Shown here in pieces: positions 6,346 to 38,345 of a stretch of 42,331 nucleotides of DNA. The position numbers were made by a program, and so were the translations under genes. How positions within the stretch are numbered: position 1 is the stretch's first letter; each line of letters opens with the position of its first letter. Source of the stretch: a virus; IMG/VR virus record IMGVR_UViG_3300038441_002392, positions 1 through 42,331 of that record; one strand, written 5' to 3'. Below the pieces are notes generated by a model, which saw only the letters and a program-made list of their open reading frames with translations, made no database searches and was not told where the DNA came from.

Positions 6346-6391
6346 GACGTTGGTCCTAGGACTCGACAGACGAGAGTGGTTCGCGTACCTT
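6332..6391 (+). promoter_or_regulatory. promoter-operator copy 2 (rightward)
   Basis: Palindrome GTCTCA-TGGCG-TGAGAC (6332-6348) overlaps the end of the ATPase gene. -35 TCGACA (6363-6368), 17-nt spacer, -10 TACCTT (6386-6391). The palindrome to -35 gap is 14 nt instead of the 5-6 seen in other copies, and the conserved GTCGGGA block is replaced by GACGAGA. Drives the VWA gene. Confidence 0.7.
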
Positions 6392-11910: not shown

Positions 11911-12194
11911 GCGACGAGCGGGAAGAGGCCGAGCAGGTCGGCCTCTTCGGCTCCGACGAGGAGTTCCATCGGGTGTGGTCCGAGTGGAACGGCATGCCGG
12001 AGTTCTCGAACGACAACCGACGCGCGGCGTCGAGCGTGATGGTCCACTTTGCGTCCGCCGCCGACCGCGCGGCGTTCGAGGAGCTCCTGGGCCAGAAGTT
12101 GCCGCTGGGGAAGCGCCTCGGCTCGATCTGGTACCCACCAGAGGCGGCGTTCGGCGTCGTCGACAAGCGCTACCGCGTGCCGGAGGAAGCATGA
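11907..12194 (+). CDS. small phage protein linked to TAGT glycosyltransferases
   Basis: 95 aa from GTG 11907 (GTGA overlap). Pattern EWNGMPEFSNDNRRAA..VMVHF..A.DRAAFEELLGQKLPLGKRLGSIWYPP recalls a short domain I know from phages beside or fused to ParB-like or TAGT genes; the molecular role is unknown. Its stop overlaps the next ATG, and the next gene is a TAGT, which supports a joint function. Confidence 0.65.
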   Translation: MSDEREEAEQVGLFGSDEEFHRVWSEWNGMPEFSNDNRRAASSVMVHFASAADRAAFEELLGQKLPLGKRLGSIWYPPEAAFGVVDKRYRVPEEA

Positions 12195-13222
12195 CCGCTG
12201 AACTCCGCACGCGACGCCAGAAGCGGCACATGGACGCGTCGACGTCGAGCGGCTTCGCGACGTTCGCGGGCGTTAGTCGACGCCGAGCGACGACGGCGGG
12301 ACGACACCCGCTGTACATCGTCTCGAAGGGTCGCTGGGATACGCAGATGACGTCGAAGGCGCTGACCGACATGAACGTCCCGCACCACGTCGTCGTCGAA
12401 CAGGCGGAGGTCGACCTCTATCGCGAGCGAGGACGTGCGTTAGGGATCGACCTCGCCGAGTACGTCGTCCTAGACCCGGCGTTCCAGCGCGACTACGACG
12501 CGCTGGGCGACTTCCCGTCACCCGGCTCGGGAGCCGCGCGCAACTTCGCGTGGGAGCATTCGATCGCCCTGGGCGCCGAGTGGCACTGGGTCATGGACGA
12601 CAACATCCAACGCTTCCATCGCTTCAACCGGAACGTCAAGACCCCTGTCGCCGACGGGACGGTGTTCCGGTGCATGGAGGACTTCTGCGAGCGCTACGAG
12701 AACGTCGCGATGGCCGGTCCCAACTACTTCATGTTTGCGTACGCGAAGGACGACCGCTATCCGCCGTTCTACCTCAACACCCGCATCTACTCCTGCAACC
12801 TCATCCGCAACGACGTGCCGTTCCGGTGGCGCGGGCGCTACAACGAGGACACCATCCTGTCGCTCGACATGCTGAAGGCGGGCTGGTGCACGATCCTGTT
12901 CATGGCGTTCCTGCAGTTCAAGATGGTGACGCAGACGATGAAGGGAGGCAACACCGACGAACTCTATGCCCAGGGCACGTACGACAAGTCGAAGATGCTC
13001 GTCGACGCTCACCCTGACGTCGCGTCGCTCGTCTGGCGACACGAGCGCTGGCACCATGAGGTCGACTATCCGCGCATCGCTCGCCACAACGTTCTCAGGC
13101 GTCGCCCTGACGTCGAGGTGCGCGAGGGCGTCGACAACTACGGGATGATCCTCGAACGCATCGACCAGCAGGGCGTCTGGCATCGCATGGCGGCCGACGA
13201 GCCGCGCTACCCGTGGGAATGA
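12191..13222 (+). CDS. TET-associated-type glycosyltransferase (TAGT)
   Basis: 343 aa. GT-A-like fold with PLYIVSKGRWDTQMTSKALTDM near the N-terminus, WVMDDN (D136, D137) as the metal/nucleotide-sugar DxD-like motif, WRGRYNEDTILSLDMLK and MTMKGGNTDELY-like text in the C-terminal half (here QTMKGGNTDELY). In actinophages this family glycosylates oxidised 5-methylcytosine made by TET dioxygenases. I see no TET or cytosine methylase in the window, so the acceptor here is unclear. Possible donor: UDP-xylose or UDP-glucuronate from genes 1.5 kb downstream (inference). Confidence 0.82.
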   Translation: MTAELRTRRQKRHMDASTSSGFATFAGVSRRRATTAGRHPLYIVSKGRWDTQMTSKALTDMNVPHHVVVEQAEVDLYRERGRALGIDLAEYVVLDPAFQRDYDALGDFPSPGSGAARNFAWEHSIALGAEWHWVMDDNIQRFHRFNRNVKTPVADGTVFRCMEDFCERYENVAMAGPNYFMFAYAKDDRYPPFYLNTRIYSCNLIRNDVPFRWRGRYNEDTILSLDMLKAGWCTILFMAFLQFKMVTQTMKGGNTDELYAQGTYDKSKMLVDAHPDVASLVWRHERWHHEVDYPRIARHNVLRRRPDVEVREGVDNYGMILERIDQQGVWHRMAADEPRYPWE

Positions 13223-13232
13223 AGGGAGAGAC

Positions 13233-13472
13233 ATGACCCAAGTCCAACGACTCCGCGACTACCTGCGCCGCAACCCTGGCGCGTCGTCGCTGGAGATCAC
13301 CCTCGCGTTGTCGATCGTGAACGTCACGGGCCGCGTCAGCGACCTACGCACGCTGCCGGGAGTCGTCGTCGACTGTCGACGTCGACCGGACGGACGCGAC
13401 GGGTACTGGCTCGTCGAGGCGCACCCACCGCAGCCAGAGGGAACGGAGCAACTGACGTGGACCGGTTCCTGA
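13233..13472 (+). CDS. small winged-helix DNA-binding protein
   Basis: 79 aa with GAAGGGAGAG just before ATG. Helical segment LRDYLRRNPGASSLEITLALSIVNVTGRVSDLR followed by a beta wing (VVDCRRRPDGRDGYWLV) is the phage winged-HTH pattern. Overlaps the next gene by 16 nt. Likely a transcription regulator. Confidence 0.65.
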   Translation: MTQVQRLRDYLRRNPGASSLEITLALSIVNVTGRVSDLRTLPGVVVDCRRRPDGRDGYWLVEAHPPQPEGTEQLTWTGS

Positions 13473-13897
13473 TCATCGGCGAGCAGCCGAGCGCTACGGG
13501 CGACGACTCGAAGCCGCTCGAAGGCGCGATCGGCGCTCGTCTCGCGGAGTACGCCGGCCTGTCGCTCGACGCGTACCTCGAGCGGACCGAGCGACGCAAC
13601 CTCGTCGCGTATGCCTCTCCGACGTGGCCCGCGAACGAGGCGGCGCGCAACGCCGGGATGATCTGGGGGGAGCTCCTGGGTCGCCAGACGCTCATGCTGG
13701 GCCAGCGCGTCAGCGCAGCGTTCGGTGTGAAGTGGGCGGCGCTCCAGTGGGTGACGCTCGACGGTCGCGGGACGCGCGTCGCGATCATCCCGCACCCGTC
13801 GACGCGCAACCTCTGGTGGAACGACGCGTCCAACAGGGCGGCGGCGAGGCGCTTCCTCGCGATGACGTTCGGCACGGCGCCGTTCGACGAGCGATGA
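13457..13897 (+). CDS. uracil-DNA glycosylase-like superfamily protein
   Basis: 146 aa from GTG 13457. N-terminal FLIIGEQPSATGDDSKPLEG and C-terminal IIPHPSTRNLWWND match the two active-site-flanking motifs of UDG-superfamily phage proteins. The protein is shorter than cellular UDGs, so enzymatic activity is uncertain; some phage members have no tested activity. Its place among modification and recombination genes fits base removal or modified-base handling. Confidence 0.65.
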   Translation: MDRFLIIGEQPSATGDDSKPLEGAIGARLAEYAGLSLDAYLERTERRNLVAYASPTWPANEAARNAGMIWGELLGRQTLMLGQRVSAAFGVKWAALQWVTLDGRGTRVAIIPHPSTRNLWWNDASNRAAARRFLAMTFGTAPFDER

Positions 13898-14163
13898 TGT
13901 ACGACCGACCGTGGACTCGCATCCCGTTCAAGTTGTCGCCGGGGCAGCGGAACGCGATCATCGTCGAGAGCGAGCGAGGAGCGTCCGTGACGGCTCTGGC
14001 CGATCGGTACGGCGTGCACCGACGAACCATCCGGCGTACGATCGAGCGCGGCGCCGCGCCGATCCACGACGTGCACATCGGGTCGTGGTCCGCATCGTTC
14101 GTCATCGACGACGAGCGCGGGCCGGTGCGCGTCAGCGAGTGGGTGGAAGATGTCCCGGACTGA
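13894..14163 (+). CDS. small HTH protein (resolvase-type HTH)
   Basis: 89 aa from ATG 13894 (ATGATG, overlapping the previous stop). Residues about 15-50 (LSPGQRNAIIVESERGASVTALADRYGVHRRTIRRTIER) form a Hin/resolvase-type helix-turn-helix; the rest is a short beta-rich tail. Overlaps the next gene by 14 nt. Probably regulatory. Confidence 0.65.
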   Translation: MMYDRPWTRIPFKLSPGQRNAIIVESERGASVTALADRYGVHRRTIRRTIERGAAPIHDVHIGSWSASFVIDDERGPVRVSEWVEDVPD

Positions 14164-14704
14164 CATCACGTTCACGCGCGCTGACGTCAGCGTCGATCAC
14201 CTCGACGACGCGAAGGTCCGCAAGTTGTGGCGCCGGCTGGGCGACTCGTCGCTCATGTGCGAGGCCGTGACGGTGCACCTCGCGGTCGTTCTCGCCTCGT
14301 GGCGCTCCGGTCGAAGGATCACGGTCCACGACGCGACGCCGATCTGGCTGACGATCTCGGAAGGCACCTTCGACGCGCTCGTCGAGGTCGGCCTCCTCGA
14401 TCGCTCGGGACGCATCCCGACGCGCTCGTGGAGTCGTCACTTCGACCCGGCGCTGGGTCGTAGGATCGAGCGGATCGAAGCCGGAAAGCGGGGCGGTAAG
14501 GCCTCCGCCGAGCGGAGGTCAAGCGGAGGTTCAGCGGAGGTCAACCCAACCAACCAACCAACCATACCAACCAACCATACAACCAACCAACCATCGCGCG
14601 GACGCGCGCGGAACGGCACCTCGGCTACGGAGCCGGTGCCGTTGCGCGACGCGCTCATCGCCGCCGGAGTCGATCCGAAACTCGTGAAGGGAGAGCGCAC
14701 ATGA
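14150..14704 (+). CDS. replication-type DNA-binding protein with Asn/Thr/Pro linker
   Basis: 184 aa. N-terminal 110 residues have a winged-helix look typical of phage replication initiators or replisome organisers (VRKLWRRLGDSSLMCEAVTVHLAVVLASWRSGRRI...FDALVEVGLLD). A low-complexity NPTNQPTIPTNHTTNQP linker, encoded by an ACCA-rich tract, leads to a short C-terminal PLRDALIAAGVDP helix. The iteron-like DNA within the gene recalls origins embedded in initiator genes such as lambda O. Function is inferred from layout. Confidence 0.5.
   Translation: MSRTDITFTRADVSVDHLDDAKVRKLWRRLGDSSLMCEAVTVHLAVVLASWRSGRRITVHDATPIWLTISEGTFDALVEVGLLDRSGRIPTRSWSRHFDPALGRRIERIEAGKRGGKASAERRSSGGSAEVNPTNQPTIPTNHTTNQPSRGRARNGTSATEPVPLRDALIAAGVDPKLVKGERT
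14512..14594 (+). repeat. iteron-like repeats and CCAA tract (candidate origin)
   Basis: Three direct copies of GCGGAGGTYA (14512, 14523 and 14534; 11-nt spacing) are followed by about 50 nt of (ACCA)n-type sequence (14545-14594) with no G on this strand. Strand-asymmetric, G-free DNA next to 11-nt iterons inside a replication-type gene is a plausible origin. It may also be only a codon-level linker repeat. Confidence 0.45.
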
Positions 14705-15984
14705 GCAACGTCTGTGTCGTCGGCGCGGGTCACGTCGGACTCGTCGTCGCCGCAGGTCTCGCCGAACTGGGTCACCGCGTCAGGGCGGTCGACGTCGACG
14801 CTCGACTCGTCGATCGTCTCAACGACGGAGAGGTCGACATCGAGGAGCCGGGCCTCATCGAGCAGGTCGCCGACGGCGTGATGAACGGCAAACTTACGTT
14901 CGGCACCGTCTACGCGTCGGCGCTCGCTGACGCCGAGTACGTGTTCCTCTGCGTCGACACGCCGCAGACGATCGCCGGAGCAGCCGACCTGTCGCGCATC
15001 CGCTCGGCGTGTCGCTCGATCGCCGAAGTCGTCAACGGCTCGTCACCGATCATCGTCATCAAGTCGACGTCACCGATCGGCACGGGCGAGACGATCGAGG
15101 ACCTCCTGCGAGCATCGCTGCCCAGCCCACGGATCGTCTCGAACCCCGAGTTCCTTCGACAGGGCCACGGCGTGATGGACTTCCGAGCGCCCGATCGGAT
15201 CGTCGTCGGTTCGCGCTCGTCGATGGACGCGCTCGCCGTCGCGTCGCTGTATCGCGCCAACTGCCCGGTCATCGTCACCGACACCCGCACCGCCGAGATG
15301 ACGAAGTACGTCGCGAACGCGTTCCTCGCCACGAGGGTGTCGTTCGTCAACGAGGTCGCCCGTCTCTGCGACGTGCTGTCGACTGACGTCGACACGATCG
15401 TCGAGGGGATCGCGAGCGACCCGCGGATCGGCCGAGCGATGTTCACGCCCGGCATCGGCTACGGCGGCAGTTGCCTGCCGAAGGACGTCGCCGCGCTGCG
15501 CTACGCCGGCGAGGTCATGGGAGCTCCGACGCCGTTGCTGTCCGCCGTCGAGAGCGTCAACGACTCGGCGAAGCGAACGATGGTGCGCCGCATCCGGCTC
15601 GCGATGAACGGCCTCGAAGGCAAGCGCGTCGTCGTCTGGGGCCTGACGTTCAAGGGCGGGACCGAGGACGTACGCCAGTCGCCGGCCGTCGATGTGGCGC
15701 GGATGCTCGTCAACGAGGGCGCGCACGTCGTCGCGTTCGACCCGAGCGTCGACGAGTTCGACGGCCTCGAAGTCGCGTTCGGGATGTACTCCGACCTCGG
15801 CGACGCCGAGGCGCTCGTTGTCCTCACGGACCACGCGGTGTTCCGAACGGCCGCATGGGACATGGTCGCCGCCGCGATGGTCGACGGCGCGTGGGTGTTC
15901 GACGGCCGCAACGTCCTGAACCCGACGACGATCACCGAGGCCGGACTGACGTACGTCGGGACGGGCAGGTCGGCGCGATGCTAG
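14701..15984 (+). CDS. ugd: UDP-glucose 6-dehydrogenase
   Basis: 427 aa, normal length for the family. Oxidises UDP-glucose to UDP-glucuronate with two NAD+. Visible motifs: Rossmann VVGAGHVGLV at the N-terminus, KSTSPIGTG, EFLRQG, the structural TAEMTKYVANAFLATRVSFVNE helix, catalytic Cys258 in GYGGSCLPKD, and GLTFKGGTEDVRQSP in the C-terminal domain. All key residues are present, so it should be active. Starts with GAAGGGAGAG upstream, and its end overlaps the UDP-xylose synthase start by 7 nt, forming a two-step sugar-nucleotide operon. Confidence 0.93.
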   Translation: MSNVCVVGAGHVGLVVAAGLAELGHRVRAVDVDARLVDRLNDGEVDIEEPGLIEQVADGVMNGKLTFGTVYASALADAEYVFLCVDTPQTIAGAADLSRIRSACRSIAEVVNGSSPIIVIKSTSPIGTGETIEDLLRASLPSPRIVSNPEFLRQGHGVMDFRAPDRIVVGSRSSMDALAVASLYRANCPVIVTDTRTAEMTKYVANAFLATRVSFVNEVARLCDVLSTDVDTIVEGIASDPRIGRAMFTPGIGYGGSCLPKDVAALRYAGEVMGAPTPLLSAVESVNDSAKRTMVRRIRLAMNGLEGKRVVVWGLTFKGGTEDVRQSPAVDVARMLVNEGAHVVAFDPSVDEFDGLEVAFGMYSDLGDAEALVVLTDHAVFRTAAWDMVAAAMVDGAWVFDGRNVLNPTTITEAGLTYVGTGRSARC

Positions 15985-16898
15985 TCCTCATCGCCGGAGG
16001 CGCGGGCTTCATCGGGAGTCATCTCGCCGACTCGTACCTCGCTGACGGCCACGACGTGACGATCGTCGACAACCTGAGTTCCGGCTCATTCTCGAACGTC
16101 CCGGGGCGCGCGCTGTTCGTCCTGCGGGACGTCTCGGATCGCGACATGCGAGAGCGCTTCTCCGAGGCGCCGTTCGACGTCGTGATCCACCTCGCCTCGC
16201 CCGCCTCTCCGACCCACTACCTCGTCGATCCGCTGGGCACGCTCGCGGCGAACAGCAGCGGGACGCTGAACCTCCTCGAACTCGCGAACGCGAAGCGAGC
16301 GCGGTTCATCTACGCCTCGACGAGCGAGGTCTACGGCGATCCGCTCGTCCATCCCCAGCCGGAGACGTACTTCGGCAACGTCGATCCGATCGGCGTCCGC
16401 TCGTGCTACGACGAGGGCAAGCGCTTCGGCGAGGCGCTGACGATGGCGTATCGTCGAACGCATGGCCTCAGGACGACGATCCTGCGCATCTTCAACACGT
16501 ACGGCCCACGGATGCGGCTCGACGACGGTCGCGTGATCCCGGCCTTCCTCGACGCGTGCCTGAACGATCGTCCCATGCCGATCCACGGCGACGGCACGCA
16601 GACGCGATCGTTCATGTTCATCAGCGACCTCGTCGACGCGATCCGACTCGTCGAGGCCTCCGGTAACGACGCCGACGGCCTCGTCCTGAACGTCGGCAAC
16701 CCAGAGGAGGTCACCGTTCTCGAACTCGCCGCGCGGATCGCGGTCGACCTCGACGCCGACTACCTCCCAGAGCGCGAGGGCGACCCGAAGCAGCGACGGC
16801 CCGACATCGCGGCGATCTCGACGCGCTTCGGCTGGGCTCCGAAGGTGTCACTCGCCGAGGGGCTACGTCGGACGATCATCGAAGGCGGCCTCCAGTGA
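15978..16898 (+). CDS. UDP-glucuronate decarboxylase (UDP-xylose synthase)
   Basis: 306 aa SDR-family enzyme making UDP-xylose from UDP-glucuronate. Motifs: GGAGFIGSHL (NAD binding), HLASPASPTHY, ASTSEVYGDP, the UXS-specific ETYFGNVDPIGVRSCYDEGKR with catalytic Y144 and K148, and RIFNTYGPRM. The NVDPIGxRSCYDEGK block separates UXS from UDP-glucose epimerases. Directly follows ugd with overlapping frames. No xylosyltransferase is certain; candidates are the TAGT and the two glycosyltransferases in the head region. Confidence 0.92.
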   Translation: MLVLIAGGAGFIGSHLADSYLADGHDVTIVDNLSSGSFSNVPGRALFVLRDVSDRDMRERFSEAPFDVVIHLASPASPTHYLVDPLGTLAANSSGTLNLLELANAKRARFIYASTSEVYGDPLVHPQPETYFGNVDPIGVRSCYDEGKRFGEALTMAYRRTHGLRTTILRIFNTYGPRMRLDDGRVIPAFLDACLNDRPMPIHGDGTQTRSFMFISDLVDAIRLVEASGNDADGLVLNVGNPEEVTVLELAARIAVDLDADYLPEREGDPKQRRPDIAAISTRFGWAPKVSLAEGLRRTIIEGGLQ

Positions 16899-17212: not shown

Positions 17213-17700
17213 TCGTTCTCGGGTACCTCGCCGCGATCGTCGCGGCCAACCTCGCCGTCGCGACGTTCGGACCGGGCATCACGCCGCTGACGGCGTTCCT
17301 GCTGATCGGCTTCGACCTGACGGCGCGCGACCGCCTTCACGAGCGCTGGAGCTCCGATCATCTGGTGCTCCGGATGACGCTCCTCATCGCCGTCGGAGGC
17401 CTGATCTCGTACGTCCTGAACGCGAGCGCCGGCCAGATCGCCGTCGCGTCAACTGTCGCGTTCCTCGTGGCGTCGACGCTCGACGCGATCGTCTACGCCG
17501 TTCTCGGAGAGCGGTCATACATGGTGCGCGTCAACGGGTCGAACGTCGTCGGCGCAGCAGCCGACTCGCTAATCTTTCCGACGCTCGCGTTCGGCTCGTT
17601 GCTTCCGCTCATCGTCGTCGGTCAGTTCGTCGCCAAGGTGGGCGGCGGCCTCTTCTGGAGTCTGATCCTTGCTGTACCTCAGCGGCGTCGTACGACCTGA
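17209..17700 (+). CDS. VUT-family (YhhQ-like) membrane transporter
   Basis: 163 aa with five to six hydrophobic segments. FGPGITPLTAFLLIGFDLTARDRLHERW and the later ASTVAFLVASTLDAIVYAVLG are the VUT/YhhQ signature. YhhQ imports queuosine precursors (preQ0/preQ1), and phage copies usually accompany 7-deazaguanine DNA modification. GAAGGGAG site before ATG. The gene overlaps the DpdA-like gene by 32 nt, tight coupling that supports a shared pathway. Confidence 0.8.
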   Translation: MIVLGYLAAIVAANLAVATFGPGITPLTAFLLIGFDLTARDRLHERWSSDHLVLRMTLLIAVGGLISYVLNASAGQIAVASTVAFLVASTLDAIVYAVLGERSYMVRVNGSNVVGAAADSLIFPTLAFGSLLPLIVVGQFVAKVGGGLFWSLILAVPQRRRTT

Positions 17701-18271
17701 CATGCCCGCGATGCTCCAGCCGGGGATGGGCAACCTCCCCCCGGTCGGGCAGCCATGGGCAGCAGACTCGGGACGGTTCGCGTCTCCCCAGACGTACTCG
17801 GATGCGGCGTACCTCGACTGGCTCGCGTCGCGACCCGATCAAGCGAACTGCCTGTTCGCGACCGCCCCCGACATCGTTGGGGATGCACCGGGGACGCTCA
17901 TGCTCTCCGCACCGATGTACGGGCGCATTCGAGCGCTGGGCTATCGCGTCGCGCTCGTCGCGCAGGACGGCCTCGAACGCCTGACGGAGTTCATCCCGTG
18001 GGACGACTTCGATGCGCTGTTCATCGGCGGGACGACCGACTGGAAACTGTCAGAGGCAGCCGCGTCGCTCGTCCTCGAGGCTCGTCGTCGAGGGAAGTGG
18101 ACGCACATGGGTCGAGTCAACAGCGGCCGCCGCATTCGTCACGCCGCGTCGATCGGGTGCGACTCGGCCGACGGGACGTTCCTGCGGTTCGGTCCTGACG
18201 TCAACCTGCCTCGGCTACGTCGCTGGCTCGCCGATCTGGAGGGAGCACCGATGCTCGACTTTCAGCCATGA
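17669..18271 (+). CDS. DpdA-like transglycosylase (TGT superfamily)
   Basis: 200 aa from TTG 17669 (GGAG 8 nt upstream). Resembles the TGT-derived DpdA group that swaps guanine for 7-deazaguanine in DNA. Motifs: WAADSGRF (D33-S34-G35, matching the DSGGF active-site loop of TGT), CLFATAPDIVGDA, VALVAQDGLE, LFIGGTTDWKLS, GKWTHMGRVNS and IGCDSADGT (D165, candidate nucleophile). Much shorter than tRNA TGT (about 370 aa) and without its C-terminal zinc site, so DNA is a more likely substrate than tRNA. Start choice is supported by coupling inside the transporter gene. Confidence 0.75.
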   Translation: MLYLSGVVRPDMPAMLQPGMGNLPPVGQPWAADSGRFASPQTYSDAAYLDWLASRPDQANCLFATAPDIVGDAPGTLMLSAPMYGRIRALGYRVALVAQDGLERLTEFIPWDDFDALFIGGTTDWKLSEAAASLVLEARRRGKWTHMGRVNSGRRIRHAASIGCDSADGTFLRFGPDVNLPRLRRWLADLEGAPMLDFQP

Positions 18272-18546: not shown

Positions 18547-18638
18547 CGCTCGACGGCATCGTCGTCATCCTCATCTGGTGGGTCGCGCTTCTGACGATCG
18601 TCGTCGTGTGGCGTCTCACACCACGAGACACCCACTAG
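18543..18638 (+). CDS. 31-aa single-pass membrane peptide
   Basis: ATG 18543 overlaps the HNH stop; GAAGGGAG site precedes it. Almost the whole chain is one hydrophobic helix (IVVILIWWVALLTIVVVW) followed by a basic tail. The last codons lie in the palindrome of promoter copy 3. Function unknown. Confidence 0.55.
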   Translation: MTLDGIVVILIWWVALLTIVVVWRLTPRDTH

Positions 18639-18664
18639 TAAGTCGGGATCGAGACGCGTATGGT
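18613..18664 (+). promoter_or_regulatory. promoter-operator copy 3 (rightward)
   Basis: Palindrome GTCTCA-CACCA-CGAGAC (18613-18629, one mismatch), -35 TAGTAA (18636-18641), 17-nt spacer GTCGGGATCG..., -10 TATGGT (18659-18664). A 7-bp inverted repeat CGAGACG/CGTCTCG also brackets the -10. Drives the small-gene block starting at 18695 with GAAGGGAG. Confidence 0.72.
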
Positions 18665-18694
18665 TCGTCTCGTCAACACCGAAGGGAGAACGAG

Positions 18695-19119: not shown

Positions 19120-19475
19120 ACGAGCGCCGAAGCAGGACGATCGCCCGCTTCCCTGACCGGCGAGCGCACGAGTTCTGGAGCGCGTGGGACCAGTTCGGGA
19201 CCACCGGCTCGATGACCAAGTGCGACCGCTGCGGCGTCTACCGCAAGGATCACCCCGTCGACTTCGACCGACTCGCGTACCTCAGCCTCGCTGACGAGTT
19301 CGACCCGATCGGGGCGAGCGAACCGGCTCGCCTCGAGGACTTCGACGAGACGTACATCGACGCCGCTCGTCGCTTCGCGACGCGCTACGCAATCCCCGAA
19401 CCCTGGGTCATCTGTTCGATGGACAACGCGCTCGCGTACCTGGAGCGCGCCGAGAAGGGAGAGAACCATGTGTAG
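19116..19475 (+). CDS. small protein with CxxC pair (119 aa)
   Basis: Start ATG 19116 chosen for the ATGA overlap with the previous stop; GTG 19107 in the same frame is an alternative. MTKCDRCGVYRKDH gives one CxxC pair plus a His. Acidic middle, Ala-rich C-terminal helix. Ends with the coding form of the GAAGGGAGAG site (AEKGENHV), which serves the next gene. Confidence 0.55.
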   Translation: MNERRSRTIARFPDRRAHEFWSAWDQFGTTGSMTKCDRCGVYRKDHPVDFDRLAYLSLADEFDPIGASEPARLEDFDETYIDAARRFATRYAIPEPWVICSMDNALAYLERAEKGENHV

Positions 19476-21091: not shown

Positions 21092-21165
21092 CGAAGCGGA
21101 ACGTATGCTCGCGGTGTGGTCGCGATATGCCATGTCCACGAAGGGATGAGCCGGACCATGTCTGA
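21088..21165 (+). CDS. 25-aa Cys-rich micropeptide
   Basis: GTG 21088 overlaps the previous stop (GTGA) and follows the second 26-bp repeat. CSRCG and a third Cys (MPCP) suggest a tiny zinc knuckle. Its end overlaps the next ATG at 21158. Supported by ribosome site and coupling only. Confidence 0.45.
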   Translation: MTKRNVCSRCGRDMPCPRRDEPDHV

Positions 21166-21454
21166 TGACCGCGATGCGCTCGCCGACTGCGAGGAACGAT
21201 TGCAGCGCGAACGTCAAGCGGGTCGCGTTATCGCGGCTTCGCTGAATGCGATGACCGCTGACACCCCCGACCCCCGCCCGGTGTCGCCGGAGCAGCGGGA
21301 CGTTGAACGAATGGCGACAGCCCTCCAGCGAGTCGGTGCGCTGTCTAGGGATCACATGACCTACCACGACTTCGCCCGCGCCCTGCTGGCCGAGTTGCAG
21401 CGGGCTAGCCAAGAGCGCGAATATCGCGGCCCCGAAGCGGAGCCGTTCGCATGA
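21158..21454 (+). CDS. repeat-mosaic accessory protein 3
   Basis: 98 aa from ATG 21158. N-terminal helix (DALADCEERLQRERQAGRVIAA), then module A (TADTPDPRPVSPEQ) and a C-terminal helix (ARALLAELQRAS). Smallest member of the family. Overlaps the next start by 4 nt. Confidence 0.55.
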   Translation: MSDDRDALADCEERLQRERQAGRVIAASLNAMTADTPDPRPVSPEQRDVERMATALQRVGALSRDHMTYHDFARALLAELQRASQEREYRGPEAEPFA

Positions 21455-22380
21455 GCCGCCCGGTGTCGCCGCCCTCGGATTGCCAGCACGACCGCGCAAC
21501 TTGCGACGATTGCGGCATGGGCTTCACGTCAATGACACCACCACTCCGCCCGTCCGACCTCCGCCCGGCATCGCGCGAGGCTGAGTTTCGAGCCATCCTC
21601 GCGGCCTATCCGGCAGGCTACCCCGAGAAGGTCGGTCCGTGGATGGACCGCGCGTTGCGTGCGCTGGGTGCTTCTGGCTTCGACCCCCGCCCGGTGTCGC
21701 CGCCCTCGGAGCGGACGATACGGACTGACGGTTGCGCGGGGGCATATGACGCTGGGTGGAACGCAGCCCTCGACGCCGCCCGTGCCGCCCCACAGGCCGA
21801 GCCCGACGAACGGATCGAGCGAGCCATGCAGGCGGGCTGGCTCGCGGGTCGTCGTGCCGCCTCACAGGCCGACGCGGGGCTGCGAGACGCTCTAGCGAAG
21901 GCCGCGTTCGTGGAGTTGCACTGGCTGTATCGGCACGCCGAGAACTTCGGCAATTGCGGCATTCCACGATGCGCTGACCGGCGAGCCGCTCTCGCCGCCT
22001 CCCCCGCTGCCCCACGGGCCGACGCGGGGCTGCTGCGAGGGGACGACATTCGCAAGGCCATTGCCGCGGCGTCCGACCTGACGAACCCCCGCCTGTCCGA
22101 AGTCGATTGGAACGATGTGGCAACGGCGCTGACGCATGACGTTCCGCCCGGCAAGCCGATCTCCCCCGCTGCCCCGGCAGGGCTGGACGGACCACTAACG
22201 ATGACCCGGCTCGGGGTCACTCACGAGTTGCGCGATGACGACATCCGTAACACGCTCTGCGGCATCTGGATCGGCGCTGAGACGTGGCACCCGGCTCATG
22301 GAACAGTTGATTGTCCGGACTGCCGTGCCGCCTCCCAGCCCTCCGAGAACACCGGGCCGGCAGATGAGGGAGCGGGATGA
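21451..22380 (+). CDS. repeat-mosaic accessory protein 4
   Basis: 309 aa. Begins directly with a diverged module A (SRPVSPPSD), then CQHDRATCDDCG, another A (FDPRPVSPPSE), diverged B modules (AAPQAEPD, ASQADAGLRDAL), B (AAPRADAGL), C (PAAPAGLD), a C-terminal THELRDDDIRNTLCGIWIG..HPAHGTVDCPDC zinc-like part, and module D (RAASQPSE). The last part resembles small phage Cys-rich proteins. Overlaps the RlpA-like gene start by 4 nt. Confidence 0.6.
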   Translation: MSRPVSPPSDCQHDRATCDDCGMGFTSMTPPLRPSDLRPASREAEFRAILAAYPAGYPEKVGPWMDRALRALGASGFDPRPVSPPSERTIRTDGCAGAYDAGWNAALDAARAAPQAEPDERIERAMQAGWLAGRRAASQADAGLRDALAKAAFVELHWLYRHAENFGNCGIPRCADRRAALAASPAAPRADAGLLRGDDIRKAIAAASDLTNPRLSEVDWNDVATALTHDVPPGKPISPAAPAGLDGPLTMTRLGVTHELRDDDIRNTLCGIWIGAETWHPAHGTVDCPDCRAASQPSENTGPADEGAG

Positions 22381-22811
22381 TGGCGACGCTCGTCTCGACG
22401 ATCGCGTGGGCGATCGTTCTCGTCGGCTTCTCCGCGACTCCGACTCGAGGTGTCGCGACGTGGTACTGCTGCACCGTGGGCTATGAAGGTCAGGCCGTCG
22501 TCGCGCTCCCTGGGGCGCGCTACGTCCCGGCTGGCGGAGCTCCCTGGGCGCGAGTCGAGGTGTGCGTCCGTCAGGACGACGTGGAGCGCTGCGGAGTGTT
22601 CCCCGTCGTCGACGCGTGCGGCTGTCCCGGCGATCGCATCGTCGACCTCAGCGTCGAAGCGGCTTCGCGAAGCCCTCGCGACGGTGGGCTGGGTCTCGAC
22701 CTCTCGCGGGGCATCTGGCCCGCTACGGTGCGACTCGTCGAGACGCCAGCGATACCCGCGACTGATAGCCTGCCTACGCCGCTGGGCGCGACTAGACACT
22801 GGCCTAGTTAG
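22377..22811 (+). CDS. secreted RlpA-like double-psi beta-barrel protein
   Basis: 144 aa. N-terminal hydrophobic segment (TLVSTIAWAIVLVGFSA) looks like a signal peptide or anchor. The domain ATWYCCTVGYEG...RVEVCV..DDVERCGVFPVVDACGC..RIVDLS.EA...DLSRGIWPATVRLVE follows the RlpA/expansin-type barrel, with conserved Asp in VVDACG and DLS. Four Cys in pairs could form disulfides outside the cell. Likely acts on or binds peptidoglycan; it opens the lysis-side gene block. Confidence 0.68.
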   Translation: MMATLVSTIAWAIVLVGFSATPTRGVATWYCCTVGYEGQAVVALPGARYVPAGGAPWARVEVCVRQDDVERCGVFPVVDACGCPGDRIVDLSVEAASRSPRDGGLGLDLSRGIWPATVRLVETPAIPATDSLPTPLGATRHWPS

Positions 22812-22822
22812 GCGAATAGCAT
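22793..22822 (+). promoter_or_regulatory. candidate promoter, TAGACA-18-TAGCAT
   Basis: -35 TAGACA (22793-22798), 18-nt spacer, -10 TAGCAT (22817-22822). It has no GTCTCA palindrome and no GTCGGGA block, so it is a different class from the six-copy family. It could drive the 22.9 kb lysis and packaging block. A GCCTA-GT-TAGGC mini-palindrome lies in the spacer. Confidence 0.4.
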
Positions 22823-22853
22823 GCCGTTCGTCGAGTCTGTGATGGCGCTGTCC

Positions 22854-22899
22854 TCTCCCTTCAGCGTCGTCGCAGGCTCGCAGAAACGGGGAAGGGAGA
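22854..22899 (+). promoter_or_regulatory. leader hairpin that could hide the ribosome site
   Basis: TCTCCCTTC (22854-22862) is a perfect complement of GAAGGGAGA (22891-22899), which is the Shine-Dalgarno of the gene at 22901. The 28-nt loop can form an inner stem. Such a fold would block initiation until opened. Confidence 0.5.
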
Positions 22900-22900
22900 C

Positions 22901-22993
22901 ATGGACATGACGCCGCTGACGCTCATCGCCATCTGCGCGATCGTCTACGTCGTTGCCTACGCAGCGATCATCGTCATCCGCGACCTCCGGTGA
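22901..22993 (+). CDS. 30-aa membrane peptide
   Basis: ATG 22901 with GAAGGGAGAC directly upstream. One hydrophobic helix (LTLIAICAIVYVVAYAAIIVI) and a short basic end. Stop overlaps the next GTG. Function unknown; it is the first of several micro-membrane peptides before the endolysin. Confidence 0.5.
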   Translation: MDMTPLTLIAICAIVYVVAYAAIIVIRDLR

Positions 22994-23196
22994 CGACGGA
23001 CCCAGCGTCGCTCGACGACGCCGAGTACCTCAGGCACCACCCCTCATGTCAGGGCCGCGTCGCGGGCTTCCCCTGCGGCCGAGTCTCGTCTGAGGTGCTA
23101 GGCGAGGGCGACCGTCGTCTAGCCCTCTGCGCGAGGTGCTATGCCGAGATCGTCGACGCTACGGAGCATCATCACGAGGAGCGCATAGCGCTGTGA
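22990..23196 (+). CDS. small Cys/His protein (68 aa)
   Basis: GTG 22990 coupled to the previous stop. Pattern HHPSCQ..FPCGR...LCARCY...HHH suggests a zinc-binding fold. Stop overlaps the next GTG. No family recognised. Confidence 0.5.
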   Translation: MTTDPASLDDAEYLRHHPSCQGRVAGFPCGRVSSEVLGEGDRRLALCARCYAEIVDATEHHHEERIAL

Positions 23197-23291
23197 CGCG
23201 ACGAGACTCGTTCCTCGTCATCGTTGCGCTCTCGGCCATCATCCTCATCGTCGTGCTGTCGCTCGTCTCTGCGATCCGTACTGACGTATGA
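23193..23291 (+). CDS. 32-aa membrane peptide
   Basis: GTG 23193 (GTGA overlap). Short basic start, then one hydrophobic helix (FLVIVALSAIILIVVLSLV). Coupled to the HNH gene (ATGA). Function unknown. Confidence 0.5.
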   Translation: MTRRDSFLVIVALSAIILIVVLSLVSAIRTDV

Positions 23292-23578
23292 CACCCTGCA
23301 TGAGGTGTGGCACCCCCAGTACATCGGCATACTGCACGTCGTGCGAGTCGACTCGACAGGGTGGCAGGGCGAAACTCCGGGGTAGGCCCTGGCGTCGCAT
23401 TCGAGCAGCGAAGTTGCGCCTCAACCCTCTCTGCGAGTGGGAAGGTGGGTGCTACGAGAGGGCCACCGAGATCGACCACGCAATCCCCCGTGACGCTGGG
23501 GGTTCGGACGCGGTGAGCAACCTGGTGGCGTACTGTCGTCGTCATCACGCGGCCAAGACCAAGCAGGATGTGGCATGA
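23288..23578 (+). CDS. HNH endonuclease, packaging-side copy
   Basis: 96 aa. Two N-terminal CxxC pairs (CMRC, CTSC), then LNPLCEW..GCYERATEIDHAIPRDAGGSDAVSNLVAYCRRHHAAKT, the classic phage HNH. Members of this type near terminase genes stimulate cos or headful cleavage (HK97 gp74). Terminase small subunit lies 2.2 kb downstream with lysis genes in between. Coupled on both sides. Confidence 0.85.
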   Translation: MTPCMRCGTPSTSAYCTSCESTRQGGRAKLRGRPWRRIRAAKLRLNPLCEWEGGCYERATEIDHAIPRDAGGSDAVSNLVAYCRRHHAAKTKQDVA

Positions 23579-23703
23579 CGAGCGAGTTGCATGCGCTGCT
23601 GCGCTTCCTCTACGTCGTTGGTAATGTCGCTACAGCAGCCGCAATCGTTGCCATCCTGCCTGTGCTGGCGTTCCTAGTCTGGCTCATGCTTCCACGTCAA
23701 TGA
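23575..23703 (+). CDS. 42-aa membrane peptide
   Basis: ATG 23575 overlaps the HNH stop. Hydrophobic from about residue 8 to 38 (two short helices or one long one, ATAAAIVAILPVLAFLVWLML). Function unknown. Confidence 0.5.
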   Translation: MTSELHALLRFLYVVGNVATAAAIVAILPVLAFLVWLMLPRQ

Positions 23704-23854
23704 ACGCTCTCGCTCAGTCCTACAGCGGAGCGTACGGGGTGTGGGGGTGGTGTAAAACCACGTCGAGCCTTGCCGGACAACCTGCGCAGTTTTGCGACAT
23801 CGCGTACGGTGATGAGCGCTTTTTCCACCAGTCGGCATTAGTAATAGAGACCCG
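23704..23854. other. 151-nt intergenic stretch, no gene
   Basis: Longest gene-free gap in the rightward part apart from the leftward cassette. It has more A/T than the flanks, a GTGGT-GTAAA-ACCAC mini-hairpin, and TACGGT and TTAGTAAT boxes, but no -35 with correct spacing. Possibly a transcript boundary or packaging-site region; no call made. Confidence 0.4.
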
Positions 23855-23977
23855 ATGAGGCTCGCGGTTCGTCGCGCGCTCGACACACTCTGGTGGCTGC
23901 TGTGCGATCACGACGTCCACATCCTGTGTCGTACGATCGTCGCCGGGGAGCGGGCCCTGCACACCCCGCGACTGTGA
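23855..23977 (+). CDS. possible small protein (40 aa)
   Basis: ATG 23855 with a weak GAGA site upstream. Basic N-terminus and LDTLWWLLCDHDVHILCRTIV, partly hydrophobic. Kept because it fills the space before the next gene and ends 11 nt ahead of it. Could be spurious. Confidence 0.35.
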   Translation: MRLAVRRALDTLWWLLCDHDVHILCRTIVAGERALHTPRL

Positions 23978-23988
23978 AGGAGACGGAC

Positions 23989-24129
23989 ATGCCGGACGAT
24001 AAGGACCTCGCCGAGAAGTTGGACGACGCCGCCGACGAGGCGCGCGAGCCGGACGCCACCCAGACGGCGGACGAACTGGAAGAGACGATCGTCGACGCCG
24101 CTGACGAGGCGGAGTCGGGCGACAAGTAG
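23989..24129 (+). CDS. small acidic protein (46 aa)
   Basis: ATG 23989 after GAAGGAGACGG, a strong site. Extremely acidic, helical, with repeats of DDAADEA and VDAADEAE. Acidic mini-proteins can mimic DNA or inhibit nucleases, but that is inference. No family recognised. Confidence 0.55.
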   Translation: MPDDKDLAEKLDDAADEAREPDATQTADELEETIVDAADEAESGDK

Positions 24130-24131
24130 CG

Positions 24132-24227
24132 ATGAGCCGAGCGCGGCGGCGGGACATGACGACACTCGTCGCCGTCGCCGCGACGCTCGGAGCGCTGATC
24201 TGGATGGCCTCGTTCTGGCCGAAGTAG
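24132..24227 (+). CDS. 31-aa membrane peptide
   Basis: ATG 24132, 2 nt after the previous stop. Basic N-terminus (SRARRRD), then one hydrophobic helix (TLVAVAATLGALIWMASFW). Function unknown. Confidence 0.45.
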   Translation: MSRARRRDMTTLVAVAATLGALIWMASFWPK

Positions 24228-24237
24228 GGAGGCGAGC

Positions 24238-31671: not shown

Positions 31672-31723
31672 GTCTCATGGAATGAAACTACCACTAGACA
31701 GTCGGGACGCGTCCGCGTACCTT
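31672..31723 (+). promoter_or_regulatory. promoter-operator copy 4 (rightward)
   Basis: Palindrome GTCTCA-TGGAA-TGAAAC (31672-31688), -35 TAGACA (31695-31700), 17-nt spacer GTCGGGACG..., -10 TACCTT (31718-31723). Starts just after the stop of a virion gene. The expected start site coincides with the ATG of the next gene. Confidence 0.72.
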
Positions 31724-34740: not shown

Positions 34741-35171
34741 GGATGCGCGTCCTGACCATCGGGACGTTCGACGGCATCCACGTCGGACACCTCGAGTTGC
34801 TGGAGTGGTGTCGGACGTTCGTCGGCGTCGGCGGTCGGGTGCTGGTCGGCGTCAACACCGACGAGTTCATCGAGCGCTACAAGGGTCGTCCGCCGCGTCA
34901 GCCGCTCGCGCACCGGATCGAGGTGCTGCGCGCGCTCTCCGTCGTCGATGACGTCTACGTCAACGTCGGCGATGAGGACGCGGGCGTCCTCATCGACGCG
35001 ATCGAGCCGGACGCGCTCGCGATCGGTGACGACTGGCTAGACGCCGACGGTGACGAGTCGCGATACTTGGCGCAACTTGGCATCACAAGGGAGTGGCTCG
35101 TGGAACGCGACCTCATGATCCAGTACGTCCCGCGGACCCGGGGAGTCTCGTCGACGGCGATCCGCGGATGA
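34737..35171 (+). CDS. TagD-like cytidylyltransferase (CDP-glycerol type)
   Basis: 144 aa from GTG 34737 (ATG 34743 also possible). Nucleotidyltransferase of the HxGH class: TIGTFDGIHVGHLELLEW (H15/H18), VGVNTDEFIERYKGRPP, AHRIEVLRALSVVDDVYVN, AIGDDWLD, and C-terminal YVPRTRGVSSTAIRG, which matches the RTxGISTTxI end of TagD. Expected reaction: CTP plus glycerol-3-phosphate to CDP-glycerol, though other phospho-alcohols are possible. It is embedded in neck genes and pairs with the glycerophosphotransferase-like gene at 38.7 kb. Confidence 0.8.
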   Translation: MRMRVLTIGTFDGIHVGHLELLEWCRTFVGVGGRVLVGVNTDEFIERYKGRPPRQPLAHRIEVLRALSVVDDVYVNVGDEDAGVLIDAIEPDALAIGDDWLDADGDESRYLAQLGITREWLVERDLMIQYVPRTRGVSSTAIRG

Positions 35172-35380
35172 TGCTCCCGCTGACGCCTCCCCAGCCCGTC
35201 ATCATCTACCCGGACACAGACGCCGAGGCCGACGGCATCGCGCTCGGTCTCGTCTGGGATCAGTCGTCAGAGGCCATCGTCATCGTCGTCGACTCCACGG
35301 GCGCGCTCGTCGACGTCAGCGAGAGTCGCGTGCGGTTCACCGAGTTGGCGTGGGAAGCCCAGCGTCGGTCCGGCTCGTGA
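35168..35380 (+). CDS. small protein between cytidylyl- and glycosyltransferase (70 aa)
   Basis: ATG 35168 overlaps the previous stop, and its own stop overlaps the next GTG. Compact alpha/beta chain with a long hydrophobic strand (EAIVIVVDSTGALVDV). No family recognised; coupling suggests a role in the same cassette. Confidence 0.55.
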   Translation: MMLPLTPPQPVIIYPDTDAEADGIALGLVWDQSSEAIVIVVDSTGALVDVSESRVRFTELAWEAQRRSGS

Positions 35381-36069
35381 GCATCATCACCCTCGTCCCG
35401 TCTCGCGGACGACCCGGGCGAGCCGAGGAGATGCAGCGCCTGTACTTCGAGACGCGCCGCCTCGCCGACACCCACCTCCTCTTCCTCGTCGACCCGGACG
35501 ACCCTGAGGTCGAGCGCTACCGCGAGGTCGTGACCGCGCTCGTCCTGCCCAGCCGGCGCGGGTTCGTCGGCGCGCTGAACTACGCCGTCGACCACCTCGG
35601 CGTCGACGCGCACGCCATCTGGGGCGCGTTCGGCGATGACGTCGCGTTCCGCAGCGCGGGTTGGGACGAGCGCGTCGTAGCAGCGCTCCAGACGCCGGGG
35701 ATCGCGTACGGCGACGATCTCATCCACGGAGCGCGTCATCCGTCGGCCGTCTGGGTGTCGTCGCTCATCGTCCGTGCGCTGGACTGGCTCGCCCTCCCGG
35801 CGACGAGCCATCAGTGGGCCGACGACGGCTGGAAGGCGATCGGCGAGTCGATGAACCTGCTCCGGTTCCTCCCTGACGTCATCGTCGAGCATATGCACCC
35901 AGCCGTCGGCAAGGCCGAGTGGGATGACACCTACGAAGGCGTGTTCACCGCGGTGCGCGCCGAGCGCGACCACGCGGGCTTCGAGGCGTGGAAGCGCCAC
36001 TGGATGGCAGCCGACCTCGGGAAGATCGGCGTAGCGCTCGACGCGCGCGACACGCGACGGCGCGAATGA
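35377..36069 (+). CDS. GT-A glycosyltransferase
   Basis: 230 aa from GTG 35377. N-terminal IITLVPSRGRPGRAEEMQRLY and LLFLVDPDDP strands, then RGFVGALNYAVDHLGVDAHAIWGAFGDDVAF, where GDD is the DxD-type metal site. C-terminal EHMHPAVGKAEWDDTY is typical for phage GT-A enzymes. Probably acts on virion protein or a wall polymer. Ends 10 nt before the bidirectional hairpin. Confidence 0.78.
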   Translation: MSIITLVPSRGRPGRAEEMQRLYFETRRLADTHLLFLVDPDDPEVERYREVVTALVLPSRRGFVGALNYAVDHLGVDAHAIWGAFGDDVAFRSAGWDERVVAALQTPGIAYGDDLIHGARHPSAVWVSSLIVRALDWLALPATSHQWADDGWKAIGESMNLLRFLPDVIVEHMHPAVGKAEWDDTYEGVFTAVRAERDHAGFEAWKRHWMAADLGKIGVALDARDTRRRE

Positions 36070-36074
36070 CGACA

Positions 36075-36351
36075 AAGCGAAGGGGCGCCGTACCCGGCGC
36101 CCCTTGGAACGATCGTCTCGTCGGCTCTGCTGCCTGCCTTCGGCGCGGTTCAACCGGGGTCTCCGGGTACGCCGCGCTGGCGTGGGGCTTGCCCTTGCGG
36201 GCGACTGTCGTCGGCGGTCACATTCGCCTCCCGACGAGACGGTTCGCTATTCAGTTCCCTGACTCGCGGGACGTCCGATCCATGCGATCGGCCTTCGCCT
36301 TGCGGGCCGTGAGCCGGAGGTTTCGAGGTTCCCTGACCGGCCGTCCTGACG
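36075..36351 (-). ncRNA. candidate structured non-coding RNA
   Basis: Leftward transcript of about 270 nt predicted from promoter copy 5 to the terminator. On the + strand, CGTCTCGTCGG (36114-36124) is complementary to CCGACGAGACG (36231-36241), extended across a 3-nt bulge by GAAC (36107-36110) with GTTC (36242-36245): a 15-bp closing helix. Inside are GCGCGG/CCGCGC (36143-36148 with 36172-36177) and a GCCC-GCAA-GGGC hairpin in the RNA (36191-36202). The 5' part has a CCGATC/GATCGG hairpin (36275-36291). No ORF over 70 codons with a ribosome site lies on this strand; a 23-codon GTG frame with GGGAGG (starting near 36225) is possible. No known RNA family recognised. Confidence 0.55.
36080..36105 (-). 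terminator. hairpin between convergent transcripts
   Basis: AAGGGGCGCC (36080-36089), loop GTACCC, GGCGCCCCTT (36096-36105): 10 bp perfect. On the - strand it is followed by CGCTTTGTC, a usable U-rich end; on the + strand no T run follows. Most likely terminates the leftward transcript and may also hold back rightward transcription. Confidence 0.75.
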
Positions 36352-36357
36352 AGATGA

Positions 36358-36408
36358 ACCATACGCGATCGCGTCCCGATGTCTAGTAGGCGTTTCGCAC
36401 CATGAGAC
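36358..36408 (-). promoter_or_regulatory. promoter-operator copy 5 (leftward)
   Basis: Read on the - strand: palindrome GTCTCA-TGGTG-CGAAAC (36408-36392), 6-nt gap, -35 TAGACA (36385-36380), 16-nt spacer TCGGGACG..., -10 TATGGT (36363-36358). The only family member facing left. The ATG of the next rightward gene (36402) lies inside the palindrome. Confidence 0.72.
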
Positions 36409-37970
36409 AGCGAGTTGTGTTCCTCGTCCCACGTCGACGCGACAACGGTCCCAGGGACGCCATCTGGGAGTACGCCAAGGCCCGCTGGCAGCGGTACCAC
36501 CCCGACGTCGCGATCGTCGAGGGACATCACGACGAAGGCCTGTTCAACCGGAGCGCTGCGGTGAACCGCGCGAGCGAGGCGGCGGGCGACTGGGACGTCG
36601 CCGTCGTCATCGACTCGGACGTGATCCTGAACCAGACGAGCGTCGACGAGGCGATCGACCGCGCGCTGAGTCTGGGCAAGGTGACGTGGGCGCATCGTCG
36701 CTGGCGAGGCATCCGCGAGGACGCGACGACTCGGATCATCGCCGACCGGCGCGACTTCGGCCCGGAGATCAGTCGCGACGAGGTCGACCTCATCTGCGAA
36801 CGCACCAACCCAATCTCGTGGTCCTGCTGCATCGCGATCCCGCGGCCGGTGTTCGATGACATGGGCGGGTTCGACGAGCGGTTCGAGGGCTGGGGGTTCG
36901 AGGACATGGCGTTCCAGTCGCTCGTCGTCGGCCTCTACGGCCACGAGCGCGTCGAAGGCGACGTCATCCACCTCTGGCACCCGCGAAGCGAGGAGCGGAT
37001 CGAGCCGGGCAAGGGTCGCCTGACGGCGACGCGCGAATACGCGGTTAACGCTCGTCTGGGCCGGAGGTACATGGTCGCCGTCCGGCGCGATCACGGCCTC
37101 ACCGATCGCCACACCGCGACTGACGCCGCCGAGATGGAGCGCGACATCGCGAACCTCGTCCGCGACGATGCGAAGTGGACGGAGACGTCGAAGCGTCATC
37201 GCCTCCCGGACTGGTCGGAGTGGTGGCCGACGCTCGAGGAGCTCCGCGACGGAGCGAAGGCGCACCGGATGGCGCGGACGATCGAGTCGGTGACGCTCGT
37301 CGTCCACACCGGCGGCGAACCCGAGACGTGGGACGATCGCGTCGCGTACCTCCGCACGGCGCTCGCGTCGCTGAACGAGCGCGTCAGCGGTCCGATCGTC
37401 CAGCGCGTCATCTACTCCGACTGGGGCGGGTATCGTCTCGACGCGTTGAACGACCTCGCCGCGCAGCACGGTTTCTACGTCGTCGGTCCGGTGGAGCATC
37501 TCGGCTACTCGAAGTCGACTGCCGCGATGTGGCGCTACCTCAGGGAGCGCGCCAAGGGCCGGTTCATCTTCGCGGTGGAGGACGACTTCACGTACGACCG
37601 CGACGTGGACCTCGTGCCGATGATCCGCACGCTCGAAGAGAACCCGCACCTGAAGCAACTCGCGCTGCTGCGACACGCCGCGTACGCGTCGGAGTTCGCC
37701 GCCGGTGGCGTGCTGGAGTCGTTGAAGTCGCCGACGACGCTACGGAACGGGCGACCGTTCCCGTTCGTCGAGCATCGCGACCACTGGACGGCGAACCCGT
37801 CGCTGTTCCGGCGAACGGTGACGCAGACTCCCTGGCCGTCGAAGGCATCGTCGGAGCGCGCATTCGGTGACCTCATGCTCCGCGACAAGGCGGCGGCGTT
37901 CGCGTACTGGGGTTCGGGCGAGGCGTGGATCACGCACATCGGTGAGACGCGCGCCTCGACGTCGTACTAG
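36402..37970 (+). CDS. two-domain glycosyltransferase
   Basis: 522 aa. Domain 1 (about 1-225): VVFLVPRRRDNG, WDVAVVIDSDVILNQ (DxD), SWSCCIAIPRPVFDDMGGFDERFEGWGFEDMAF, the galactosyltransferase C-terminal (Glyco_transf_7C) signature. Domain 2 (about 300-522): VTLVVHTGG, FYVVGPVEHLGYSKSTAAMW, RFIFAVEDDFTYDRDVDLVPMI (EDD metal site) and SGEAWITHIGE. Both sites look intact, so it could add two sugars in sequence. Start is uncertain: ATG 36402 has only weak AGG upstream and overlaps the leftward operator; GTG 36417 is an alternative. Confidence 0.8.
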   Translation: MRQRVVFLVPRRRDNGPRDAIWEYAKARWQRYHPDVAIVEGHHDEGLFNRSAAVNRASEAAGDWDVAVVIDSDVILNQTSVDEAIDRALSLGKVTWAHRRWRGIREDATTRIIADRRDFGPEISRDEVDLICERTNPISWSCCIAIPRPVFDDMGGFDERFEGWGFEDMAFQSLVVGLYGHERVEGDVIHLWHPRSEERIEPGKGRLTATREYAVNARLGRRYMVAVRRDHGLTDRHTATDAAEMERDIANLVRDDAKWTETSKRHRLPDWSEWWPTLEELRDGAKAHRMARTIESVTLVVHTGGEPETWDDRVAYLRTALASLNERVSGPIVQRVIYSDWGGYRLDALNDLAAQHGFYVVGPVEHLGYSKSTAAMWRYLRERAKGRFIFAVEDDFTYDRDVDLVPMIRTLEENPHLKQLALLRHAAYASEFAAGGVLESLKSPTTLRNGRPFPFVEHRDHWTANPSLFRRTVTQTPWPSKASSERAFGDLMLRDKAAAFAYWGSGEAWITHIGETRASTSY

Positions 37971-38293: not shown

Positions 38294-38345
38294 GTCTCAT
38301 GGCGTGAAACTACTACTCGACAGTCGGGATCGCTTCGCGTAGGCT
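38294..38345 (+). promoter_or_regulatory. promoter-operator copy 6 (rightward)
   Basis: Palindrome GTCTCA-TGGCG-TGAAAC (38294-38310), -35 TCGACA (38317-38322), 17-nt spacer GTCGGGATCG..., -10 TAGGCT (38340-38345). Best match to the family consensus. Drives the 92-aa gene with its own terminator. Confidence 0.75.

Follow-up and report, generated by a model that had tools for sequence, protein, structure and literature searches.

To our knowledge, few structured RNA families encoded by phages have been described outside model phages, and the RNA elements known to act at phage promoters come mainly from lambdoid phages. The lambda nut sites (boxA/boxB) are promoter-proximal RNA elements found in both the leftward and the rightward operons of the phage. 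In HK022, the put RNA binds the zinc-binding domain of the beta-prime subunit of RNA polymerase and suppresses termination. Of the two put sites, each about 70 nt in length, putL immediately follows PL and putR is located some 270 nt beyond the PR start; the put RNA binds RNA polymerase (PMC9378689). The Cluster A mycobacteriophages Alma, LadyBird and RedRock have origin RNAs that are, like the RNA described here, ORF-less RNAs of actinobacterial phages; they adjoin parABS and act in prophage replication (PMC7157519), in contrast to the element reported here, which sits among capsid genes. A further point of comparison is the phage moron, an inserted cassette among late genes that has its own promoter and terminator-like hairpin, is absent from homologous loci and, in its classical form, encodes protein.

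The DNA analysed here (the window) is a stretch of 42,331 bases corresponding to the virus record IMGVR_UViG_3300038441_002392, from an uncultured soil phage. The gene set is siphovirus-like, with terminase, portal, capsid, adaptor and tail genes together with several sugar-transfer genes. Isolate phages are distant, terminase identity being below 30% in the best records listed, and in IMG/VR neither a terminase search nor the exact promoter pattern gave a match. A codon-usage gene caller placed 64 of 64 predicted genes on the plus strand and left 36070-36416 free of genes, which bears out the claim of the original prediction that this is the only leftward transcript. The gap itself (36070-36401), flanked by two sugar-transferase genes, lacks a coding signal on both strands and contains three leftward-facing parts, namely a promoter, some 270 nt able to fold as RNA, and a hairpin resembling a terminator. 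The features that we refer to below are:

36358-36385, minus strand: leftward promoter, TAGACA-16-TATGGT (consensus scan, homology to 18636-18664, family scan).
36269-36346, minus strand: conserved 5´ RNA domain, in which the stem P1 (GGACG/CGUCC) encloses three hairpins and the invariant core (covariance model match, pair counts).
36312-36342, minus strand: hairpin P2, GGCCGG (36342-36337) with CCGGCU (36317-36312) and a 19-nt loop (pair counts).
36293-36311, minus strand: invariant core CACGGCCCGCAAGGCGAAG, including the small hairpin P2b, GCC-CGCAA-GGC (identical in the leftward copy of the relative G003, below).
36275-36291, minus strand: hairpin P3, CCGAU/AUCGG with a 7-nt loop (pair counts).
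36107-36245, minus strand: 3´ domain closed by an 11 + 4 bp helix and containing CGCCCGCAAGGGCAAG, which resembles the core (fold z, inverted repeat).
36080-36105, minus strand: terminator-like hairpin AAGGGGCGCCG/CGGCGCCCCUU followed by CGCUUUGUCGUC (inverted repeat; tail from the sequence).
18636-18664, plus strand: rightward copy of the leftward promoter, with no RNA domain behind it (homology).
31695-31723, plus strand: rightward promoter of the same family, TAGACAGTCGGGACGCG...TACCTT (family scan).
38317-38345, plus strand: rightward promoter of the same family, TCGACAGTCGGGATCGC...TAGGCT (family scan).

Two other parts of the genome can be described here. Genes resembling beta-glucosyl-HMC-alpha-glucosyltransferase, UDP-glucose dehydrogenase and a nucleotide-sugar epimerase are grouped at 11975-16898, and a nucleotidyltransferase and two further glycosyltransferases are encoded at 34743-37970; these genes may point to DNA or a virion modified with sugars. 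At 21092-24237, codon use differs and the gene calls are interrupted by several long gaps; this region includes a 309-aa ORF (21451-22380) and an HNH-like ORF (23288-23578), and possibly represents recent imports.

The promoter at 36385-36358 on the minus strand was the only promoter-like site found within 35-37 kb (0.2 in shuffles). A 52-nt stretch at this site matches the rightward promoter region 18624-18675 at 81% (E = 7e-6), and 0.02 copies of the motif are expected by chance. Other rightward copies, of the form TMGACAGTCGGGA...CGCGTANNNT, were found at 31695 and 38317, with a weaker copy at 6363 (family scan). Given these copies and the one at 18636, the original prediction was correct in seeing here a leftward member of the phage's own promoter family. 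From the promoter spacing, the leftward transcript is expected to start near 36351.

Relatives of the phage were located via the downstream glycosyltransferase. One of them, IMGVR_UViG_3300018481_000055 (G003, also L023), carries the 5´ domain (window 36346-36269, minus strand) twice, once leftward and once rightward. The leftward copy lies in a 318-nt gap in the corresponding capsid/glycosyltransferase region, before the first glycosyltransferase, whereas the gap in the window lies after it; in the G003 gap, a TTGACA-16-TAGCGT promoter faces left, and 28 nt match the window 5´ domain at 89%. The rightward copy (823-879, plus strand), found with a first model made from the window and the leftward G003 sequences, stands behind TTGACACTAGACAATCGTGGTGGTAGCGTT, which is of the same promoter type as for the leftward copy, within the leader of the gene at 916-1152, which belongs to a small-gene operon; it ends 27 nt upstream of the start codon. 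By inspection and promoter spacing, the domain would begin about 5 nt after the expected transcript start in the window, about 7 nt in the G003 plus copy and about 80 nt in the G003 minus copy.

Over 57 positions, the alignment of the two G003 copies is free of gaps. Of the 14 pairs in three hairpins, 8 are doubly compensated, none is broken and 100% of the cells are paired; when the partner in this two-copy alignment was slid by one base, at most 43% were paired. A covariance model that used the two G003 copies only, with the window excluded, matched the window at 36342-36273 on the minus strand, scoring 52.2 bits in a search of 824 kb (E = 3.3e-10), and kept 14 of the 14 pairs, the next-best site scoring 22.9 bits. 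When the window was included, in an alignment fitted to the model, the count of doubly compensated pairs rose to 9 of 14 and none was broken (0/500 shuffles), with at most 45% paired in the slid controls. Coding loci chosen for a match to the core scored only 18-30 bits with the three-copy model. The structure is kept by compensatory change on the promoter-made strand in two phages, at three loci. Because paired compensatory mutations occur at the starts of two predicted G003 transcripts, we are highly confident that the 5´ domain is a real, undescribed RNA element with a conserved structure. The original prediction had called for a covariance search among related phages, and the covariation found in G003 supports its view of a non-coding, structured leftward phage RNA; homologues that break the helices and a conserved protein frame were both looked for, and neither was seen. 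The 5´ 78 nt are a member of a new family of promoter-proximal structured RNA elements. Since one G003 copy lies in the 5´ leader of a protein-coding operon, the conserved unit is promoter-proximal and not necessarily an sRNA.

The element is a closed junction in which P1, of 5 bp in the window and 17 and 10 bp in the G003 copies, encloses P2, P2b and P3. P2 has 6 bp, four of them doubly compensated over the three copies and none broken, with a 6-nt loop (CACMGA) in G003 versus 19 nt in the window. P3, described in the original prediction as a CCGATC hairpin, has 5 bp, with four doubly compensated and none broken. P2b, which had been noted there as a hairpin with a GCAA loop and is likewise present, has the form GsC-CGCAA-GsC, and its C-G pair in the window is G-C in the G003 plus copy. 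The consensus of the core is CACGGsCCGCAAGsCGAAGR, where s is G or C and the two s positions pair with each other; the joining strands, CACG and GAAGR, do not vary among the three copies. P2 contains a G-U pair on the promoter strand in each of the three copies, which would be an A-C mismatch on the opposite strand, and this favours an RNA made from the strand of the element's own promoter. For the G003 plus copy, unguided folding yields exactly the P1/P2/P2b/P3 junction (z -3.4).

Folding energy by itself is only moderate evidence. Comparison with shuffled sequences, which had also been suggested at the outset, gave z = -2.97 for the whole minus transcript and -1.73 with the terminator removed, the opposite (plus) strand of the gap also folds well (z = -2.25), and the window 5´ domain alone is no more stable than shuffles (z about -0.5). 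The G003 minus RNA folds with z of -6.5 to -7.6. The 15-bp closing helix that the original prediction stressed is present, as 11 bp (36114-36124/36231-36241) and 4 bp (36107-36110/36242-36245) separated by a 3-nt bulge, and the domain that it closes is stable, with a fold z of about -4.1 that was reached in 0 of 300 shuffles. Among 300 mononucleotide shuffles of the gap, 5 contain a perfect inverted repeat of 11 bp. No homologue of the 3´ domain (36107-36245) was found, so that comparison lends the closing helix no support; conservation is confined to the 5´ domain. An 18-nt direct repeat (83%) links 36185-36202, the CGCCCGCAAGGGCAAG repeat within the 3´ domain, to 36290-36307 in the core. The stretch in the 3´ domain could be the decayed remnant of another copy of the element, and the covariance model does not recover it. 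The predicted 10-bp terminator corresponds to a strong 11-bp hairpin at 36080-36105, but its U-rich tail on the minus strand is loose and weak, and a strict terminator scan did not call it.

Several relatives lack the gap at the corresponding place (homologous loci L003, L004, L006 and L007), and the cassette therefore looks like an insertion. Gaps beside glycosyltransferases appear to be a hot spot of reverse-strand inserts in this phage group. In L038 (G004/G005), the gaps at 752-956 and 5775-6017 hold small genes next to glycosyltransferases under leftward TTGACA promoters. G003 has two further leftward cassettes with a TTGACACTAGACAA promoter (18122 and 19521, minus strand), whose RNAs open with a CTGGGC...GCCCAG hairpin and code for small proteins (genes 17640-18050 and 19225-19467). 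Since leftward promoters of the same kind in G003 and G004/G005 drive small-protein cassettes among late genes, the window cassette fits a moron slot; in contrast to classical morons, it encodes RNA only.

We searched for further members of the family and for relatives among known RNAs. The window gave no match in Rfam 15 at the gathering threshold, and nothing relevant appeared at E up to 10, in agreement with the original prediction that no known family matches; ARAGORN called no tRNA or tmRNA. When the gap was compared by BLAST with 50,697 phages, and the 5´ domain with plasmids, only short matches were returned, and those inspected were coding. Core and pattern scans (four of IMG/VR and one of 84,980 GTDB genomes) gave coding chance matches only, apart from the G003 copies and one site in a further virus record, L121; the other matches were rejected as coding by gene call or reading frame (TARKAK; collagen-like GPQGE). 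Model searches of 396 and 395 actinobacterial genomes, a sample that may miss the host, likewise gave coding chance matches only, and matches at 28, 31 and 35 bits were rejected as lying inside genes. The L121 site (IMGVR_UViG_3300012940_000710, 5366-5407, minus strand) is a non-coding leader with a TTGACA promoter, the exact core and a P2-like hairpin, but its predicted fold differs from that of the element and repeated CGACACGTGTCG palindromes follow, making it a doubtful member. The family is thus established in two phages, at three loci. The twister-sister ribozyme (structure in PMC5660989) has both the string CCGCAAG and a multi-way junction, which are common to the element. This identity was rejected, since CGCAA in the element is a hairpin loop closed by a stem with one covarying pair and not an internal loop, and RF02681 gave no match at E up to 10.

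Each of the three copies (window minus, G003 minus and G003 plus) follows a promoter from its own phage's family, a position like that of put. The element may be likened to HK022 put as a structured RNA of about 70 nt behind phage promoters on both strands, one at the start and one further in. The folds differ: put has two stem-loops with an RNA triplex, whereas the element is a closed junction with a different core. The lambda nut sites are similar as promoter-proximal elements on both strands, although boxB is one small hairpin, bound by N. We tentatively suggest a promoter-proximal element that binds RNA polymerase or a regulator and that, in the window, heads a stand-alone leftward RNA. 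In this model, the gap would be a small cassette of promoter, RNA and terminator-like hairpin, set leftward in an all-rightward genome. The element would act at the 5´ end of phage transcripts, and its partner would most simply be RNA polymerase, or else an RNA-binding regulator (compare HK022 put). In the rightward G003 copy it would stand ahead of an mRNA, and in the window and leftward G003 copies it would be part of a stand-alone leftward RNA, which could titrate the element's partner or modify leftward transcription. Against this model, the copies number only three, from two phages, and the rightward promoter at 18636 has no element. As no genes lie downstream of the leftward copies, a role in antitermination would have nothing obvious to serve there. 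More broadly, it is quite conceivable that the copies represent a previously undescribed RNA class, which phages position directly after promoters of their own in both orientations and which is also made as a free leftward RNA; it would act directly on the host RNA polymerase as a non-lambdoid counterpart of put, or would bind a ligand or be catalytic.

An alternative that we consider possible, though open to doubt, is a stand-alone trans-acting phage sRNA of about 270 nt, an "RNA moron", which would act on mRNA or decoy a protein that normally binds at the mRNA-leader copy. The promoter, the terminator-like hairpin and the lack of an ORF are what would be expected of such an RNA, as is its addition to a locus that lacks the gap in relatives (L003, L004, L006, L007). 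In the corresponding region, relatives also have leftward cassettes with their own promoters that encode small proteins (the L038 gaps; G003 18122 and 19521). However, the leftward G003 RNA has no separate terminator hairpin, the rightward G003 copy is an mRNA leader, and complementarity to the phage's own mRNAs is barely above chance, with 4 matches of at least 12 nt versus 1.2 expected and no target that stands out or is shared. Nothing in our analysis therefore supports the regulation of capsid or glycosylation genes proposed in the original prediction.

It seems unlikely that the element is instead a leader acting in RNA stability, processing or translation, including by ligand binding or self-cleavage, which would have hitchhiked with its promoter to the leftward site. 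A compact junction with an invariant unpaired core is reminiscent of ligand-binding or catalytic RNAs, the G003 plus copy ends 27 nt ahead of a start codon, and the other G003 cassettes also have a hairpin at the transcript start, but an expression platform is not evident and the Rfam ribozyme and riboswitch families gave no match at E up to 10.

It is very improbable that GC-rich intergenic sequence folds here by chance, or that a small reading frame is conserved. The modest folding energy might suggest the former, and the core reads TARKAK in one frame, with chance matches to the core elsewhere being coding. Yet the compensated pairs and the independent model match refute both, unless the G003 copies are assembly artefacts, and in the third copy the TARKAK frame becomes TGRKPK, with a stop soon after and no start codon. 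The longest ORF in the gap has 23-24 codons and none is common with the relative, as the original prediction of no good ORF would have it; a small ORF was rejected because no shared frame has a start codon, and the element copies on leftward transcripts (window and G003) contain no usable ORF. There is scarcely any likelihood of a replication primer RNA like the RNA-based origins of extrachromosomal mycobacterial prophages, which do express an ORF-less non-coding RNA required for replication (PMC7157519), given that parAB and repA were not seen among the proteins scanned (part of the set), that G003 has two copies, one an mRNA leader, and that the site lies among capsid genes with no adjacent partition cassette.

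The comparison with G003 makes the observation stronger than was visible from the window sequence alone. The element family is new, while its kind, a promoter-proximal or stand-alone phage RNA, is already known. There is now a covariance model of 57 positions, together with three natural copies whose helices are compensated and a core, invariant among them, that can be mutated, and with these an effect of the element on termination, on stability or through a protein partner is directly testable in a laboratory actinobacterium.
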